DNA from: a virus
Strand: one strand, 5' to 3'
IMG/VR virus record: IMGVR_UViG_3300045918_000295
Location: 1 to 24,450 of that record
DNA: 24,450 bases
How positions within the stretch are numbered: the stretch's first letter is position 1; each line of letters opens with the position of its first letter. A model generated the notes under the pieces. The model worked only from the letters and a program-made list of their open reading frames with translations, searched no databases and was not told where the DNA came from. Made by a program: the position numbers and the translations under genes. Shown one piece after another: positions 1-8,574 of the stretch.

Positions 1-808
1 GGCCGAGGTGTCGCGGCAGCCAGGCCTCGATGTCGGACTTGGCTGCATTGAGCCATTGCGGTGATTCGTGCAGCAGCACCATGTCGTCGACATAGCGGAT
101 GTAGTGGCGGCAGCGCAGATCGTGCTTGATATGTTGGTCCAGCGCATCCAGGAGAACGTTGGCGAAGAATTGACTGCTCAGGTTGCCGATGGGCAGCCCA
201 AGGTGCGATGGCTGGCTGGTGAGGCGTTTGTGCGGTGGTACGCGATCCAGTAGATCCGGATCGCCGCGGTATTCAAAGTCCTGGCGCGGATCATGGAATA
301 GGATCTGCTCTGCCAGCTGCATCCACCAGCCGCTGACGCGCTTGGCCAGCAGCTCGCGCACAACGTATTTATTGATGCTGACGAAGAAGTTGGCCAGATC
401 CAGTTTTAGGTAGTGCGCTGGCTTGCTCCAATTCTGGGTGATGCTGCGGATCTTCGATTCCAGCCTCTGGGCCCCATATAGCGTGCCGCGCCCTGGGATG
501 CAGGCGCATGAGTCAGCGATGAATCCGGCATAGAAGCGGGGCGAGATTCGGTTGTAGAGCAGGTGGTGCACGATGCGGTCGCGGAACTCTGCGGCCCACA
601 CTTCGCGCGGCTTGGGTCTGGTGATGACGAAACAGATGCTCTTGCCGGGGCGATACGAGCCGTTGCGCAGTTCGTCGTCCAGTTGGCACAGGTTGGCCTC
701 AAGGTTGATCTCGAATGCGAGGGAGGACGGTTTGTTGCGCTTGCTCTCACGGCAATCGAGGTAGGCCTGTACCAGCTCCTCGAAAGAAAAATCAGCATGG
801 TGGCGCAA
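1..808 (-). CDS. DGR reverse transcriptase (partial, C-terminus beyond window edge)
   Basis: Group II-intron-like reverse transcriptase that would copy the neighbouring template repeat RNA into adenine-mutagenised cDNA. I translated the minus strand by hand from 808 to 1 and found one uninterrupted frame of 269 codons. Visible motifs in order are FEELVQAYLDC near the start, RDRIVHHLLYNRI with IPGRGT (finger region), KLDLANFFVSI (motif A, first catalytic Asp), GLPIGNLSSQFFANVLL (the SQ motif 4 typical of DGR enzymes) and YVDDMVLL (catalytic Asp pair). The thumb and C-terminus lie beyond position 1. There is no in-frame ATG. The best start is a TTG at 808, eight bases downstream of the TR, with no clear ribosome site, and the frame stays open upstream through the TR. 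The overlapping 406-840 frame is a shadow. Family assignment is secure; the start is uncertain. Confidence 0.93.
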   Translation of the reverse strand, partial: MRHHADFSFEELVQAYLDCRESKRNKPSSLAFEINLEANLCQLDDELRNGSYRPGKSICFVITRPKPREVWAAEFRDRIVHHLLYNRISPRFYAGFIADSCACIPGRGTLYGAQRLESKIRSITQNWSKPAHYLKLDLANFFVSINKYVVRELLAKRVSGWWMQLAEQILFHDPRQDFEYRGDPDLLDRVPPHKRLTSQPSHLGLPIGNLSSQFFANVLLDALDQHIKHDLRCRHYIRYVDDMVLLHESPQWLNAAKSDIEAWLPRHLG

Positions 809-815
809 TGTTTGA

Positions 816-923
816 TCTGCGGACGGGGCGAGCGCGGCACTCAGAGCTCTTGTTGTTGTTGTTCTGGTTTCCGTTGTTGAAATTCTGATACCAGGCGTTG
901 TTTGAGTTGCCGGCGTGCTGCGT
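816..923 (-). repeat. DGR template repeat (TR)
   Basis: This 108-bp block aligns without gaps to 1496-1603 at an exact offset of 680 bp. It shows 16 mismatches, all at positions where the TR has A on the minus (coding-sense) strand (T on plus). Read in the target frame it encodes an Asn-rich peptide with 11 Asn codons (10 AAC, 1 AAT), the codon choice typical of DGR templates. The 37 bp at 816-852 are identical in TR and VR and correspond to the initiation-of-mutagenic-homing end. Beyond 923 a 2-bp difference interrupts further similarity (see findings). The TR lies between avd and the RT gene, the usual place. Confidence 0.95.
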
Positions 924-1095
924 TTATTCGCACTATCTACGTCGCCATGCCGACCGCTGCAGTCAGTCAGCATGGAAACTGCGCGGGACCTTTCCTGGGT
1001 ATCTAGCCCGGCGGTATCCGTTATGCGCATATCGGTGGCTTGCGCCAGCGGTGCGACCAGATTAAAAGATCGTACAGTCATAGCGGCCTTGACCA
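924..1095 (-). ncRNA. Non-coding spacer, probable 5' part of the TR transcript
   Basis: These 172 bp between the avd stop and the TR contain no plausible gene on either strand; the short frames here overlap avd or the TR and lack ribosome sites. In characterised DGRs the RNA flanking the TR is needed for priming and RT binding, so this stretch probably belongs to the template RNA. That is inference. I see no strong promoter hexamers or terminator in it. Confidence 0.4.
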
Positions 1096-1452
1096 TCATG
1101 AAACAGACGATGTTGCGGATTGCTTGCGCCATCCATTGGCTTGCTTGCCGATGCTGGTGGTGAGCTTGATCGCCGCGCCGTACTGGCCGGTGGAGATCAT
1201 TCGCTTGTCACGCGCCAACCGGAGCATCAGTTCGGCAACCTGGACCCGTTCAACGATCGAAAGCAAGTAGGTCTCTTTCTCCTTGGCACAATTGGCGCGG
1301 AAGATGAGGACCAAAACGGCGATGCATTCCTTGCGGAGTTCGGCGCCGATCAATGCCTTGAAGTCGCGGGGCATGTTCTTGATGAGATCAACGATCACAT
1401 CGAACAGGTCGTAGGCCGCTTTGTGAATTGCCAGCTCTGTATGGATAGCCAT
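1096..1452 (-). CDS. avd: DGR accessory variability determinant (Avd-like four-helix bundle protein)
   Basis: A 118-residue, mostly helical, basic protein. In characterised DGRs Avd forms a barrel-shaped pentamer of four-helix bundles that binds the RT and template RNA and is required for mutagenic homing. The assignment rests on length (known Avd proteins are about 110-130 aa), on the pattern of long charged helices ending in a segment that reads RDKRMISTGQYGAAIKL followed by SIGKQANGW, and on its position between the variable gene and the TR. It starts 19 bp after the target stop codon, with only a weak AGG upstream. An alternative label is a generic four-helix-bundle protein of the 23S intervening-sequence family, which is structurally the same superfamily. 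Confidence 0.85.
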   Translation of the reverse strand: MAIHTELAIHKAAYDLFDVIVDLIKNMPRDFKALIGAELRKECIAVLVLIFRANCAKEKETYLLSIVERVQVAELMLRLARDKRMISTGQYGAAIKLTTSIGKQANGWRKQSATSSVS

Positions 1453-1471
1453 GCTGATGGAAACCTAATTG

Positions 1472-1843
1472 TTAAATGACTGAATCACTAAATTCTCTGC
1501 GGACGGGGCGAGCGCGGCACTCAGAGCTCTTGCTGCCGCTGAGCTGGTGTCCGCTGCCGAAACCCTGATACCAGGCGCTGTAGGAGTCGCCGGCGTGCTG
1601 CGTATTCGACCAGTACCAATCTTTCTGAAACTCTTCCGGCATGTACTTGTAGAACAGCGCTTGCTCGGCACGATCCGGAAGGTCTCCGCCGAGATCTTTG
1701 GCGAGCTGCATACCTGCGTCCCAGCTGGCTACGCTTTCATCGACTGGAAGCAAGATTGTGTGAATGGTTTTGCCGTCTGGCAGGGTGATGCTGAAGGCGT
1801 ATTTCTCGCCTTCGTTTAGCGGCGGCAGGGTGATTGCGTTCAT
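1472..1843 (-). CDS. DGR target (variable) protein, C-type-lectin-like C-terminus
   Basis: A 123-residue protein whose last third is the VR. The ATG at 1843 has a strong AAAGGAG site nine bases upstream. The N-terminal part (EGEKYAFSITLPDGKTIHTILLP) is beta-rich. It is followed by a GGDLPDRAEQALFYKYMPEEF helix and then WYWSNTQ, AWYQGF and CRARPVRREF, an arrangement found in the formylglycine-type C-type-lectin fold of DGR targets. Diversified residues relative to the TR are 86, 88, 89, 94, 96, 97, 99 and 101-104. It is much smaller than a tail-fibre adhesin and has no signal peptide, so it may be a subunit or a cytoplasmic binder; its ligand cannot be told. It lies 27 bp behind parB and is probably co-transcribed with it. 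Confidence 0.9.
   Translation of the reverse strand: MNAITLPPLNEGEKYAFSITLPDGKTIHTILLPVDESVASWDAGMQLAKDLGGDLPDRAEQALFYKYMPEEFQKDWYWSNTQHAGDSYSAWYQGFGSGHQLSGSKSSECRARPVRREFSDSVI
1496..1603 (-). repeat. DGR variable repeat (VR)
   Basis: This is the partner of the TR at 816-923, inside the 3' end of the target gene. On the coding strand the 16 changes from the TR are 11 A>G, 3 A>C and 2 A>T. No template G, C or T has changed. Twenty of the 36 template adenines are unaltered, including all six in the 37-bp homing end at 1496-1532. Changes cluster in AAC codons and convert every TR-encoded Asn (to D, Y, S, G, G, S, H, L, S, G, S); one further change is synonymous in a Ser codon. Confidence 0.95.
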
Positions 1844-1870: not shown

Positions 1871-3721
1871 TTAAAGCGGGGTTGGGAATGGCCACGTCGC
1901 AGCTGGGCGAACTTTTTTGTCTGTGCCAAATACAGGTTCCGGAACGTCGGCTGCTTTCTTTCCTTTAGGCTTCGCGTCTTTCTTCGCAGCTTCCTTGTCT
2001 TTCTCGGCCTTCTTTGCTGCAGCTGCTGCAGCTTTGTCCGCTGCCTTGGCTTCGGCGAGGGCCTCTTTTTCGACGGTGTCGGCATCGATGCCGATCTCCT
2101 GGGCGATGGTGTACAGGTTGTCTTTGATGCTGTGCGATCCCAGCTCGACGACCATGGCCAGATCGAGCAGAAGCAGCACGTGTTTTTGCGTGGTTAGCTT
2201 GGGGATCTCTTCCTGGAAGGCGCACAGCAGGTCTACTTCTTCGGGCAGATCTGGCATGTACATCTTGGCGATGAGTTCCGCCCCATCGGAGTCGCCGTAT
2301 TCAATTGCATCGGAGAAGAATTGCTTAGCCAGGACGCAATACAGGCCGTCCGGCATCACTGGATTGGGATTGTTCAGGTTGGCATCGATCTGCTGGTGCA
2401 GGGTTTCAAACAGGCGCTTGCGGGCGAACTCTTTTTGATTATTCTCCGCGCGTGCTTTTTCCTGCTGTTTTTTCCAGGCATCATTGCCACTGTCCTGCTT
2501 TGCTTTTTGCACTGGCGTGATCTCAAAGCCTGCTTCACGCAGCGCCTTGGTAGCGGCCTCGATGCTGACGGTCTCGATCATGCTGCCGGGCTTGTGCGGG
2601 TTTTCGATGAGGGTCTTGGCCAGCGGCGCCGCCTTGTCGCCGGTGGGCTGCAGCAGCTTCTTTTCCTTGAGCAGCTTGGCGTAGGTGCGGCCTTCTGAAT
2701 CGCCGGGCACTAGGGTGTCTAGGGTGGCGTAGCCGTGTTTTTCGAGTTGCTCCTTTGGCTTCTCCCAATGGTTCGGCAGGATCTTCTTGGAGTCTTTGGC
2801 CAGAATGACCTGGTTGCCTTTTTCTTCGGCCGCTTTCTGGATGGCCAGCACGTGGGCGGTCTTTTTCAGGGCGTGGCAGACGGGGTCGGTGCAGACATCT
2901 TTACTGGTGACGTCGTCGAAAAGTTCGGGCTGGTTACCGGTGCGCTTGGTGCAGTTGGTGCAGCTGCCCGCCTTGGGAAGCAGTTCGTCATTTTTGATAT
3001 CGAAGGGTGCCTCGGCGAGATCCAGCATGTAGCGGTCCTGCAGGATCTCTTTGGCCTTGCGATAGGACATTGCTTTGTCGCCCTCGACATGGTTCCCTGT
3101 GCTGTAGTTCATTTTGCGCGTTACTTCGGCGAGCGCTTCGATCTGCAGCTTCTTGACGGGGATGCGCGCGATCAGCAGGGCGGTAGAGGCGTCCAGTTCG
3201 CCGGCATAGAATGCTTCGCGGCCTTCCTGGCACAGTTCCAGCAGCTTGAGGCGGGCATAGATGGTTCCACGGCTGACGCCCATGATGTCGGCGATCTTTT
3301 CAGCGGTATGTGGATTACCCGCAGCATCAGTTTCTTTCATCAGTTTCTCGAATCCCTCGGCTTCCTCGAGCTCGTCCAGATCCTCGCGCTGTTTGTTTTC
3401 GATCAGCTGAATGGTGAGGACTTCGAGGTCAGTGAGTTGTCTGGAGATGCAGGGAACTTGATCGAGGCCCGCGATCTCTGCCGCGCGCCAGCGGCGTTCG
3501 CCAGCAACGATTTCATATTGCCCGGACTCAAGCGAGGGGCGCACCAGGATGGGCTGGGCGATGCCTACTGAGCTGATAGACTTGGCGAGGTCTCCCAAGC
3601 TGGCGGCATCCAGTCCGCGACGTTTGCGCGGATTGGTGGGGGATGGATGCAGGCTTGTGTGGGGTAGCAGGGCTGCATTAAGTTGGATGTTGAGCTGTAG
3701 GGTATTTTCGGGTGCGTTCAT
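1871..3721 (-). CDS. ParB/RepB/Spo0J-family DNA-binding protein
   Basis: A 616-residue protein. The N-terminus carries a ParB nuclease-like domain with the hallmark GERRWRA box (about residues 74-80) and an ENKQREDLDELEEAEGF segment (108-124). A helix-turn-helix follows (EKIADIMGVSRGTIYARL, about 141-158). Cysteines at about 254, 257, 277 and 282 could bind a metal. The C-terminus is a long Ala/Lys/Glu-rich tail. The frame extends 39 codons upstream, but the ATG at 3721 is chosen because AGGAGT lies seven bases before it and it starts four bases after the preceding stop. There is no ParA gene beside it, so a role in phage DNA organisation or regulation is as likely as partition. Confidence 0.88.
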   Translation of the reverse strand: MNAPENTLQLNIQLNAALLPHTSLHPSPTNPRKRRGLDAASLGDLAKSISSVGIAQPILVRPSLESGQYEIVAGERRWRAAEIAGLDQVPCISRQLTDLEVLTIQLIENKQREDLDELEEAEGFEKLMKETDAAGNPHTAEKIADIMGVSRGTIYARLKLLELCQEGREAFYAGELDASTALLIARIPVKKLQIEALAEVTRKMNYSTGNHVEGDKAMSYRKAKEILQDRYMLDLAEAPFDIKNDELLPKAGSCTNCTKRTGNQPELFDDVTSKDVCTDPVCHALKKTAHVLAIQKAAEEKGNQVILAKDSKKILPNHWEKPKEQLEKHGYATLDTLVPGDSEGRTYAKLLKEKKLLQPTGDKAAPLAKTLIENPHKPGSMIETVSIEAATKALREAGFEITPVQKAKQDSGNDAWKKQQEKARAENNQKEFARKRLFETLHQQIDANLNNPNPVMPDGLYCVLAKQFFSDAIEYGDSDGAELIAKMYMPDLPEEVDLLCAFQEEIPKLTTQKHVLLLLDLAMVVELGSHSIKDNLYTIAQEIGIDADTVEKEALAEAKAADKAAAAAAKKAEKDKEAAKKDAKPKGKKAADVPEPVFGTDKKVRPAATWPFPTPL

Positions 3722-3725
3722 GGTT

Positions 3726-4598
3726 TTACTCCTGAGTTGTATGGGCGAGGATGGTTTGCACTTCAGAGCGCGCAAGCACGACCGAGATCCCGTCCTTGCA
3801 GATAGCCACGCCGCCATCCTTGCGGACGCCGAAGGCAAAGCTATATTCCGGATCGAAGGCAGCGAGGGGTTTGGCGGCTACAGGCACGGATGTGGCTGCA
3901 GGCTTTTGGGGCTTCTGCGGCTTGGCCTTGGCCAGCGCTGCCGAAGCTTTGGCGATGGCAGCTAAAGCGGGACGATTGGCAGGTTTGCCGGTCTCGGTAA
4001 TTGGATACAGCTTCCGTTCGGCTCTGATGCCTTCGTATCTAACCGTCTTCGACGAATGGATCAGATTTTCGATGATCTTCCGGACCTGCTTATCTGTTGA
4101 GTCTGGGTACTCGACGAGGAGGTATTCGATCAAGTCGGTTTGTTTCATGCCGGGCTTTTTGACGATCATATTGAAAGTCGTGGTGCGGATTCCGCTTGAG
4201 GGATGTCCCATGGGTTTCTCCTGAGTTTGTGGGAATGGTGAAATTGAAGTATTTGGCTGCACTTTTGCAGTCGCCGGCTGCATCTTTGCGGCCGCTTGTT
4301 CTTGTGTTGCTACCTTGCGCACAAGCACGGCGCGAGGTGCTGGGGCTGGCGTGGAAATGCGGAAAGGTGCGGGCGCCTGGATCGCGCCGGTGATCCAGTA
4401 CGAGACAAATGGCTGGCTGTTTTTGCAGCCGGAGGCGCGCTGGATAGTTTTGTCGAGGTACATCTGATCGAGAAGATTGTAGAGTTCTCCTAGGTCGTCA
4501 CAGATCGGCTCGGCGATCTTGCGCAGGGTTTCCAGCGGAATGGAGAATTGGCTGCTTGATCCGGTGAGTTCCTTCAGGACAGCGTCGCGGAGATTCAT
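3726..4598 (-). CDS. Putative DNA-binding protein with two winged-helix-like segments
   Basis: Not recognised as a named family. The 290 residues contain an N-terminal helical segment (LRKIAEPICDDLGELYNLLDQM), a Pro/Ala/Gln-rich linker, and a second winged-helix-like segment (MKQTDLIEYLLVEYPDSTDKQVRKII). After an Ala/Lys/Pro linker, the C-terminal patch (SFAFGVRKDGGVAICKDG) resembles the short beta motif seen in many phage regulators. The ATG at 4598 overlaps the upstream stop as ATGA, which favours it over the GTG at 4607. It directly precedes parB, so a joint role in DNA binding is plausible but unproven. Confidence 0.75.
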   Translation of the reverse strand: MNLRDAVLKELTGSSSQFSIPLETLRKIAEPICDDLGELYNLLDQMYLDKTIQRASGCKNSQPFVSYWITGAIQAPAPFRISTPAPAPRAVLVRKVATQEQAAAKMQPATAKVQPNTSISPFPQTQEKPMGHPSSGIRTTTFNMIVKKPGMKQTDLIEYLLVEYPDSTDKQVRKIIENLIHSSKTVRYEGIRAERKLYPITETGKPANRPALAAIAKASAALAKAKPQKPQKPAATSVPVAAKPLAAFDPEYSFAFGVRKDGGVAICKDGISVVLARSEVQTILAHTTQE

Positions 4599-5323: not shown

Positions 5324-5428
5324 TTAGATCTCCGTCTTGGATGCGATTCTTCCGCCCCAAGAAATCAGCATAAATACCGCGACGAGGATGATGTACGGCG
5401 CAACGCTGTCTGCCAGTTCCCAGTTCAT
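5324..5428 (-). CDS. Small single-pass membrane protein, 34 aa
   Basis: A clear transmembrane helix (VAPYIILVAVFMLISWGG) lies between a short acidic N-terminus and a basic C-terminus (RIASK), predicting N-out/C-in topology by the positive-inside rule. A GGAGG site precedes the ATG at 5428, which overlaps the upstream stop. Such tiny membrane proteins are common in phage early operons; no function can be assigned. Confidence 0.62.
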   Translation of the reverse strand: MNWELADSVAPYIILVAVFMLISWGGRIASKTEI

Positions 5429-5595
5429 GCTGCCCTCCGCTCAATCGGCTTGCATGTGATCTTCACCGGCCCCTGCGACAGCTGACAGGTGCGAATGCCG
5501 GTACAAGTTGCCTCGAAAGTGCTGTGCGCGACGATCTTGCGCACAGTGCGCTTGCCGCCGCTGATCAGGACAAACTGAAAGGTGGCCGCGCTCAT
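5425..5595 (-). CDS. Hypothetical protein, 56 aa
   Basis: A short basic protein, probably beta-rich (FQFVLISGGKRTVRKIV, then FEATCTGIRTCQLSQGPV), with three Cys. It is coupled on both sides by ATGA overlaps with the 117-aa gene upstream and the 34-aa membrane protein downstream. Not recognised. Confidence 0.65.
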   Translation of the reverse strand: MSAATFQFVLISGGKRTVRKIVAHSTFEATCTGIRTCQLSQGPVKITCKPIERRAA

Positions 5596-5945
5596 ACCAG
5601 CACCACTTTGCCGATGGCAACGCGCAGCAAGTTCAGCTTTTCATCAATCCCAGCCTGGGATGCGTCGCCCTCAAATCCGGTCATGAATTGCTCTGCGACT
5701 GACAACGCGCTCAAGATGAAGCGCGGGCTGATCAGGTTGTTGTTGGTTTGCAGCGTTTCAACGGCGGCATGGCAGCGATTGACGATCTGCTGGATCTCTT
5801 CCGTCTTCTCGCTGTCGAGTTCGGCTTTGTTCTTGAGATGATCCAGCTCCATCGCGGCATCCAGCGATGATTTGATCAGCACCGCGACGGAATGGCCGTA
5901 GGTGGTGTAGACGTCTGTACTGAGTTGTGGCGCAGCGGATTTCAT
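5592..5945 (-). CDS. Hypothetical helical protein, 117 aa
   Basis: A mostly alpha-helical acidic protein. A central region (LDAAMELDHLKNKAELDSEK, then TEEIQQIVNRCHAAVETL) has heptad-like spacing and may form a coiled coil. No signal peptide or catalytic motif is seen. It starts in an ATGA overlap with the gene ending at 5942 and ends in one with the 56-aa gene. Function unknown. Confidence 0.72.
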   Translation of the reverse strand: MKSAAPQLSTDVYTTYGHSVAVLIKSSLDAAMELDHLKNKAELDSEKTEEIQQIVNRCHAAVETLQTNNNLISPRFILSALSVAEQFMTGFEGDASQAGIDEKLNLLRVAIGKVVLV

Positions 5946-6151
5946 GCTTCCGTTCCTTTCTGGATAAGTTCGTTGAGTTGGTCCCGGATGAATTGCTTTT
6001 CCCTGGCGTCGCCAGTGAGCAAAGATCCAAGCATTGATGACATGCGGCCGGTGCAGTAGGGATAAAGGCCGCTGTCGTTGCTATAGGTGGCGACGTATTC
6101 CTTTTTGATGCCTTGGAATAGGGCATCGGAGATGTCGGATTTCACACTCAT
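5942..6151 (-). CDS. Hypothetical protein, 69 aa
   Basis: A short protein with helical ends (SVKSDISDALFQGI and REKQFIRDQLNELIQKG) and a central Tyr-rich loop (YSNDSGLYPYCTG). Coupled to both neighbours by four-base overlaps. Not recognised; likely a host-takeover or accessory early protein by position only. Confidence 0.68.
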   Translation of the reverse strand: MSVKSDISDALFQGIKKEYVATYSNDSGLYPYCTGRMSSMLGSLLTGDAREKQFIRDQLNELIQKGTEA

Positions 6152-7734: not shown

Positions 7735-7929
7735 ATGGATTCGCAAATCAAAAAAGACGCAGAACTGATCGAACAGCTTGGTGGACCAACCAAGCTGGCG
7801 CAAATTCTTGGCTACGAGATGCCAATCGGGGTGCAGCGCGTGAGCAATTGGCGCACTCGTGGTATTCCGGCGAAGGTAAAGGTCGACCGTCCTGATTTGT
7901 TTCTGAACAGATACCAGGAGGCCGCATAA
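7735..7929 (+). CDS. Cro-like / YdaS-like helix-turn-helix regulator
   Basis: A 64-residue protein with an HTH of the Cro/YdaS type: IEQLGGPTKLAQILGYEMP, then VQRVSNWRTRGIP. The LGGPTKLA motif and the recognition segment ending in W-RGIP are standard for these phage antirepressor-type proteins. It is the first gene from PR and divergent from the repressor, so it is expected to act as Cro. No Shine-Dalgarno precedes the ATG, and the predicted transcript starts at or within a base of it. It is followed immediately by the next gene. Confidence 0.85.
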   Translation: MDSQIKKDAELIEQLGGPTKLAQILGYEMPIGVQRVSNWRTRGIPAKVKVDRPDLFLNRYQEAA

Positions 7930-8574
7930 ATGGATCCTATCTATCACACTGATTCCTATCCGCGCGAAGGTTGCATTGTGAGTATTGATGTGCAGAAAGA
8001 TGGCTACGCGCTTCGCATTTCCTCGCCAACCGGTGAGCCGATGGAGTTTTATGGAAAAGTGCGCACGCCGCGCGCCATAGGTCGCTTGGTTGAAGAGTGG
8101 TGTGCAGGGTTTGTCCCCCGCCGGGTTGACCGCTTGGATCATTTGTATGCAGCATACCTTCGCTGGTGCGAACAGGCGGGCGAAGGTAAGTCAGGATGGC
8201 TTAGTAAAGAAAAAGATTTGGAGGCTGCCAAGCGAGCTATCGCGGCCGGTTTGTCTACAAATCCGAATCGGAAGGTATCCTTGTTGCCAAAGCTTCCAAA
8301 GTCGCCAATGGAAGTTCTTGGGTGCGAAAGATCTAATGCTTCTTTGGTAGAGCCCCAGCAGGATCTGATAACAGCGCAACCGCGAAGCCTTTGGTCAATG
8401 TACCGACGTTGGTCTCTCCATTGCGAGTCATTTCCCCGGCCATCTGATTCATCTCTTTTGAAAGATTCTCCGCGTATGACTTTGGGATATGCCTTCCCAA
8501 GACGATCAGTAGCGATCCGATTGCTTGTTTCAATTCTTGTATTGATGGCTCTTTCATGGGCATTCCTTTCATGA
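7930..8574 (+). CDS. Hypothetical early protein (214 aa frame; C-terminal part doubtful)
   Basis: The ATG follows the cro-like stop directly and has an AGGAGG site, so the start is firm. Residues 1 to about 120 look like a normal protein (GCIVSIDVQKDGYALRIS, then RAIGRLVEEWCAGF, then AAYLRWCEQAGEG). The last 80 or so residues, Ser/Arg-rich with a hydrophobic end, overlap a convincing minus-strand gene (8333-8557) and read like a shadow. A frameshift or 3' replacement near 8330 could have joined a true gene to antisense sequence. No family recognised. Confidence 0.6.
   Translation: MDPIYHTDSYPREGCIVSIDVQKDGYALRISSPTGEPMEFYGKVRTPRAIGRLVEEWCAGFVPRRVDRLDHLYAAYLRWCEQAGEGKSGWLSKEKDLEAAKRAIAAGLSTNPNRKVSLLPKLPKSPMEVLGCERSNASLVEPQQDLITAQPRSLWSMYRRWSLHCESFPRPSDSSLLKDSPRMTLGYAFPRRSVAIRLLVSILVLMALSWAFLS
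8333..8557 (-). CDS. Hypothetical protein, 74 aa
   Basis: It encodes a helical protein (EPSIQELKQAIGSLLIVLG, then KSYAENLSKEMNQMAGEM). The ATG at 8557 is preferred to 8572 because AAAGGA lies about eight bases upstream. It is isolated on the minus strand, convergent with and nested inside the 3' part of 7930-8574. A half-operator-like GTTTAG lies upstream near 8580. Function unknown. Confidence 0.5.
   Translation of the reverse strand: MKEPSIQELKQAIGSLLIVLGRHIPKSYAENLSKEMNQMAGEMTRNGETNVGTLTKGFAVALLSDPAGALPKKH

Follow-up and report, generated by a model that had tools for sequence, protein, structure and literature searches.

The 24,450-nucleotide viral contig analysed here, the window, is the entire IMG/VR record IMGVR_UViG_3300045918_000295 and begins with a diversity-generating retroelement (DGR) that departs from BPP-1 in how its template RNA appears to be built. 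A structured RNA, RT-15, lies on the 5′ side of the template repeat (TR), no spacer lies on its 3′ side, and the reading frame of the reverse transcriptase (RT) is open through both RT-15 and TR. The best overall explanation, and a highly probable one, is a temperate-phage DGR that sits in the early operon, from repressor to integrase, and works by the mechanism proposed below. That the element is a genuine DGR, as the first-pass annotation had claimed from the sequence, is close to certain: the assignment rests on RT phylogeny, the restriction of TR differences to adenines, the presence of Avd, the lectin fold of the target, and natural activity in relatives.

Layout of the cassette

The genes are arranged on the minus strand in the order target with its variable repeat (VR), avd, TR and RT (Table 1). 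The 172 nt between avd and TR are occupied by RT-15, which overlaps the final 17 nt of avd, while about 7 nt separate TR from the start of RT homology. The stop codon of the target is 21 nt past the end of VR. The first-pass annotation had described a complete element in canonical order. The order stands for the genes but not for the RNA, which has its structured part 5′ of TR and lacks a 3′ spacer. Nor is the element complete: the contig end cuts the RT domain, leaving 269 of about 364-376 residues, and as the window is already the whole record, the RT remains incomplete.

Table 1. Features of the DGR and the adjoining upstream gene in the window
Feature	Position	Strand	Basis
DGR reverse transcriptase domain	2..808	-	PHROG and PDB matches, tree, IGNLSSQ and YVDD motifs
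Template repeat (TR)	816..923	-	108-nt repeat of VR
RT-frame leader across RT-15 and TR	809..1081	-	Open frame, list of starts, stop avoidance in the family
RT-15 structured RNA, Rfam RF03018	921..1112	-	Covariance-model match and covariation
avd (accessory variability determinant)	1096..1452	-	PHROG 3206 and Pfam bAvd
Target gene, 123 aa, C-type-lectin fold	1472..1843	-	AF2, Foldseek, weak Lcl_C match
Variable repeat (VR)	1496..1603	-	Repeat of TR, differences at template adenines
ParB-family gene, upstream neighbour in the minus-strand gene run	1871..3838	-	ParB_N 3.7e-25

Reverse transcriptase, Avd and relatives

The RT carries IGNLSSQ, which fits the [ILV]GxxxSQ type of DGR motif, and YVDD, so that the SQ and YVDD motifs named in the first-pass annotation are both present. 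It matches the PHROG reverse transcriptase profile at 1.1e-89. Its best PDB match is the BPP-1 bRT (8ub7, 1.8e-32), followed at 0.00012 by the next entry, with group II RTs far behind. In the RT tree, the window sequence groups inside the DGR clade with six known DGR RTs, those of BPP-1, BalMu-1, VHML, crAss, ANMV-1 and Bacteroides F2 (SH-aLRT 99.9). The same node rules out a group II or retron RT; the retron rows have long branches. The Avd protein matches PHROG 3206 (6.8e-32) and, above the Pfam cut-off, bAvd (1.1e-11).

Related RTs define a family of 123 loci, the window included, drawn from viral contigs, isolated phages and bacterial genomes. The closest bacterial loci have 87-88% RT identity and lie in Gallionellales and Gallionellaceae genomes, others lie in Burkholderiales and Pseudomonas, and prophage relatives reside in Gallionellaceae and Burkholderiales genomes. 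The host of the window's temperate phage is probably a member of Gallionellaceae or a related betaproteobacterium. One of these bacterial genomes, from Gallionellales, contains the prophage locus L121 as well as a second RT (L144) that groups with BPP-1 in the tree, which suggests that it may hold a second DGR.

Adenine-specific differences and activity in nature

Of the 108 positions of TR and VR in the window, 16 differ, each of them at a template adenine, exactly as first reported. The differences comprise 11 A>G, 3 A>C and 2 A>T, and the probability that 16 randomly placed differences would all fall on the 36 adenines of TR is 1.4e-9. Read in the VR frame, TR contains eleven AAY codons (ten AAC and one AAT), whose adenines can be randomized without creating stops. 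The bias extends to the family, where 2236 of the 2328 differences across 184 TR/VR pairs are at a template adenine, a base that makes up 30% of template positions.

Direct evidence of activity in nature comes from two relatives, L031 and L035. Their TRs are identical and their VRs differ at 14 sites, all adenines of the template, while 0/235 non-adenine VR sites and 0/1770 other sites differ. With TR unchanged and VR altered at adenines only, the family diversifies in nature. A chance repeat or a pseudo-DGR is ruled out by this pair together with the adenine-only differences in the window and the 184 family pairs.

The window VR also differs from each VR of the relative L002 at 20 positions, all of which are adenines in the L002 TR. 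At 19 of the 20 the TR of the window has adenine too; the two TRs are one base apart, with C in the window where L002 has A.

No clear IMH stem-loop was found after the VR of the window, where the sequence forms only a 4-bp AT-rich stem. GC-rich hairpins occur 25-34 nt 3′ of VRs in eight other loci (L074, L080, L084, L086, L101, L105, L122 and L123). These hairpins of some branches resemble the IMH stem-loop of BPP-1, whereas the branch of the window is without them. In BPP-1 itself, the IMH stem-loop downstream of VR is not strictly needed.

A structured RNA on the 5′ side of TR

RT-15 matches its Rfam model over its full length in the window (155.6 bits, E 3e-38, against a gathering score of 82 bits), and was found in 10 of 10 relatives tested. 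The single-sequence fold of RT-15 with TR is as stable as its shuffles (z -0.03); because this measure is uninformative, comparative evidence was used. When 68 relatives were aligned for this analysis, standard pairing was seen in 91% of cells and double changes in 37 of the 55 pairs, while shifting the pairings by 1-3 nt lowered standard pairs to 31-44%. The closing helix of RT-15 stops a few nucleotides 5′ of TR. The Rfam entry RF03018 bears no DGR label, unlike RF03022, and no mention of RF03018 was found in the literature searched, the coverage of which is incomplete.

The other side of TR has no spacer. In 116 of 117 loci, no more than 45 nt part the 3′ end of TR from the point where RT homology begins, with a median distance of -2. 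In BPP-1, a spacer 3′ of TR recruits RT-Avd and primes the cDNA, and cDNA synthesis is brought to an end by a motif within the 3′-terminal part of avd (PMC12875486). This precedent allows for a different reading of the window, in which the recruiting and priming RNA is still 3′ of TR but hidden in the start of the RT gene, and RT-15 only stops the cDNA or regulates avd and RT. However, the Phage_DGR RNA (RF03022) has no match between TR and RT in the window or elsewhere in it. A spacer hidden within the RT coding sequence also leaves no sign at synonymous sites, as fourfold third positions at the RT start are no more conserved (0.505 and 0.489) than elsewhere (0.41-0.55). Finally, in the relative L012, RT-15 remains beside TR although the RT lies half a kilobase off with its own ATG. 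Taken with these observations, a hidden 3′ RNA is rather unlikely.

That RT-15 is part of the template RNA is therefore the favoured reading, and a probable one. With a 3′ spacer missing, the element that recruits, and perhaps primes, is most likely RT-15 at the 5′ end; whether it substitutes for the 3′ spacer of BPP-1 is an evenly balanced matter. A more specific proposal is tentative: the template RNA would be a permuted version of that of BPP-1, in which RT-15 recruits, and possibly provides 2′-OH priming, from a position 5′ of the template as in a retron, and TR doubles as a translated in-frame leader of the RT.

The RT frame is open through the template

In the window, the RT frame is open from ATG 1132 across RT-15 and TR into the RT domain, with in-frame ATGs, reading down, at 1132, 1099, 1096, 1081, 1030 and 973. 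ATG 1081 is preceded by AAGG at 1090-1087 with a 5-nt spacing, and judged by this sequence context it would be the most likely start of the RT. A TTG at 808 is present in 3 of the 86 loci first examined, the window counted. The first-pass annotation had held that the RT lacks an ATG near its N-terminus and would be missed by simple ORF calling. No ATG is indeed close to the catalytic domain, but with the frame open from ATG 1132, ORF calling would not miss the RT.

Nearly all relatives keep the RT frame open upstream through TR and RT-15. Stop codons were compared with a null in which each alignment column is redrawn independently (300 randomizations). Upstream of TR, the RT frame has 4 stops where 17.4 are expected, a count as low being reached in 0 of 300 randomizations, while the other two frames agree with the null. 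Because relatives are counted here as if they were independent, the tests look stronger than they are; protection against this comes from the column null and from setting the three frames side by side. Where neither TR nor the sequence after it offers an ATG (31 loci), stops number 0 against 6.0 expected. Restricting the test to the 27 bacterial-genome loci leaves a deficit (2 against 3.6 expected) that is not significant. Inside TR, counted over 97 loci, stops number 1 in the RT frame, 0 in the VR frame and 50 in the third frame. Insertions and deletions upstream of TR are mostly multiples of three.

The open frame could be a by-product of a conserved RNA, with the RT starting in TR or at its edge and most of the template left untranslated. 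An ATG lies inside TR in 57 of the 97 loci, the nearest in-frame ATG sits past TR in just 5 of 97, and no start codon is conserved. Amino-acid constraint upstream of the domain is also weak, the synonymous share being 0.38 as compared with 0.28-0.29 in the wrong frames and 0.8 in the RT. In four loci (L026, L080, L091 and L117) the RT must start within or after TR, owing to stops upstream of TR or in it. Even so, a by-product is hard to reconcile with stop avoidance that exceeds column composition in the RT frame only, that persists in the 31 loci where TR and the sequence after it provide no ATG, and that is joined by indels in threes. The locus L012 is a further difficulty for it. Here a methyltransferase-like ORF (5363-5998) stands directly behind TR in the frame of TR and splits RT-15 and TR from the RT, so that a different protein continues the same frame. 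Between TR and the conserved part of this gene there is no start codon, and the ATG of the RT overlaps the gene's stop codon. The insert is matched by phage methyltransferases at up to 72% (phage KLER1-1) and has zero matches in Pfam.

On balance the by-product reading is improbable, and there is good reason to think that the RT is translated through the template, that is, through RT-15 and TR. The weak amino-acid constraint implies that the leader is probably dispensable; this pattern would fit a leader whose frame is retained and whose sequence probably serves the RNA.

The frames of TR can also be arranged otherwise. In the Limnobacter locus L118 (around 7880-7980), TR is read in the same frame as VR, so that the RT would bear an N-terminal lectin-like peptide, AYAWIQNFNNGNQNNNWKNNNYRARAVR.

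The target protein and its likely place of action

The target matches Pfam Lcl_C at 6e-7, under the curated cut-off, so that of the profile searches first suggested those for RT and Avd gave firm matches and that for the target a weak one. Its AF2 model (pLDDT 94.5) has a lectin-like fold, and the best solved Foldseek match of the model is 8q4e, the C-terminal domain of Legionella Lcl (4.6e-4). As modelled, the target is a C-type-lectin-fold protein with VR near its C-terminus. No signal peptide or membrane segment is apparent in it, and hydropathy across the family reveals no strong hydrophobic segment in the targets.

The gene in the window has a composite origin. The part upstream of VR agrees with target A of L002 (94%), and the part downstream of VR with target B of the same locus (98-100%). 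By this comparison two ancestral targets in tandem have fused to give it, as if the 492 bp between the VRs had been lost. VRs resemble one another over a long stretch and the contig comes from a metagenome, so an assembly that collapsed two tandem VRs could have given the same product. However, the VR of the window is no simple mosaic, given its 20 differences from each L002 VR, all at template adenines, and single-VR loci exist elsewhere (18 of 102), which leaves an artefact unlikely and a true fusion preferred. Two VRs are found in 69 of the 102 loci and three in 9, and in most loci a tandem target pair adjoins avd. A second VR was looked for across the window and not found, on a contig that does not include the tail genes.

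Each of the complete phages Magia, QDWS and Cruim01 carries three VRs, all of them in genes that lie from the repressor to the RT. Two adjoin avd and the third is farther upstream, between the repressor gene and recombination-type genes; none of the three phages has a VR among its virion genes. Across the family, the target genes are small and lie in the stretch from repressor to integrase. In a large survey, tail proteins make up most of the phage DGR targets (PMC8144416), and some DUF1566-like folds sit in long phage proteins, one of them named tail fiber, from which the target might, like that of BPP-1, be part of the virion and serve to recognize the host. The short length of these proteins, the position of their genes among repressor, recombination and integrase genes, and the virion genes of Magia, QDWS and Cruim01, free of VRs, make that quite improbable. 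Action in the cell is favoured by the same small early-region genes, the absence of VRs from virion genes and the lack of a strong hydrophobic segment, and the diversified target is in all likelihood a non-virion protein.

The first-pass annotation had also placed the element in a prophage early operon. This is well supported by relatives, namely the Gallionellaceae and Burkholderiales prophages and especially L121, a Gallionellales prophage in which one strand carries the DGR, ParB and a phage integrase in succession. The contig itself shows no integrase or att site. The ParB gene, which is upstream of the DGR in the window, is downstream of the RT in L121 (9122-10909), and a ParB relative is near the DGR, upstream or downstream, in 25 other loci. 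Elsewhere in the contig (17748-18710), a 320-aa ORF of repeated units such as SLSFSGALAKRTSKLLTGGLSF adjoins structural genes.

Proposed mechanism and significance

A single transcript would span avd, RT-15, TR and RT, in which the RT-15 fold and TR together make up the template RNA. RT and Avd would bind this RNA and produce an adenine-mutagenized cDNA, which would then home into VR. RT-15, at the 5′ side, would recruit and perhaps prime, replacing the 3′ spacer of BPP-1. The first codon of the RT would lie within the template RNA, for the window at the ATG preferred above, and TR would then be at once the template of the cDNA and coding sequence for the N-terminal leader. Inside the lysogen or infected cell, the product would most likely act as a variable binder of molecules of the host or of rival phages, which is the least certain step of all.

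What a DGR template RNA requires is known mainly from BPP-1. A large family with its RNA on the opposite side and TR in the RT frame is a natural test of the parts that recruit, prime and stop the cDNA. It also suggests a function for RT-15, an Rfam family named by its neighbour alone, and draws attention to phage DGRs that would diversify proteins acting within the cell.

Comparison with known systems

DGRs, Avd, DUF1566 targets, multiple VRs per DGR (PMC6642488) and overlap of TR with RT ORFs are already known. No description of the 5′ RNA, the missing spacer or evidence for translation of the template was found in the literature searched, which was covered incompletely.

The window has in common with BPP-1 (mtd-avd-TR-brt) the gene order, adenine-specific TR/VR differences, Avd, a related RT and a C-type-lectin target fold. 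The two differ around TR. In BPP-1, TR abuts avd and is followed by a 144-nt gap before brt that holds the Phage_DGR RNA RF03022, whereas in the window the gap is between avd and TR, is filled by RT-15, and is matched by none between TR and RT. The BPP-1 RT has its own start, while the RT frame of the window is open through TR. The target of BPP-1 is a tail protein and that of the window an early-region gene.

Closer to the window are Burkholderia phage Magia (Magiavirus) and its Shewanella and Pseudomonas phage relatives, which have RTs of the same family at 64-70% identity and share with it Avd and small lectin-fold targets near the integrase. Among the relatives of Magia, RT-15 was tested in QDWS and Haboob and is annotated in Cruim01. 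The window has one fused target by the DGR, the Magia group two. The Magia DGR has been announced, its authors proposing genes 47 and 57 as targets (PMC7883833); a further VR, unnamed in the announcement, is found in gene 46, which adjoins avd. A TR overlapping the 5′ end of an annotated RT ORF has been described before, from annotation only (PMC3521204). To that overlap, the family of the window adds conservation of the frame and a structured RNA 5′ of TR.
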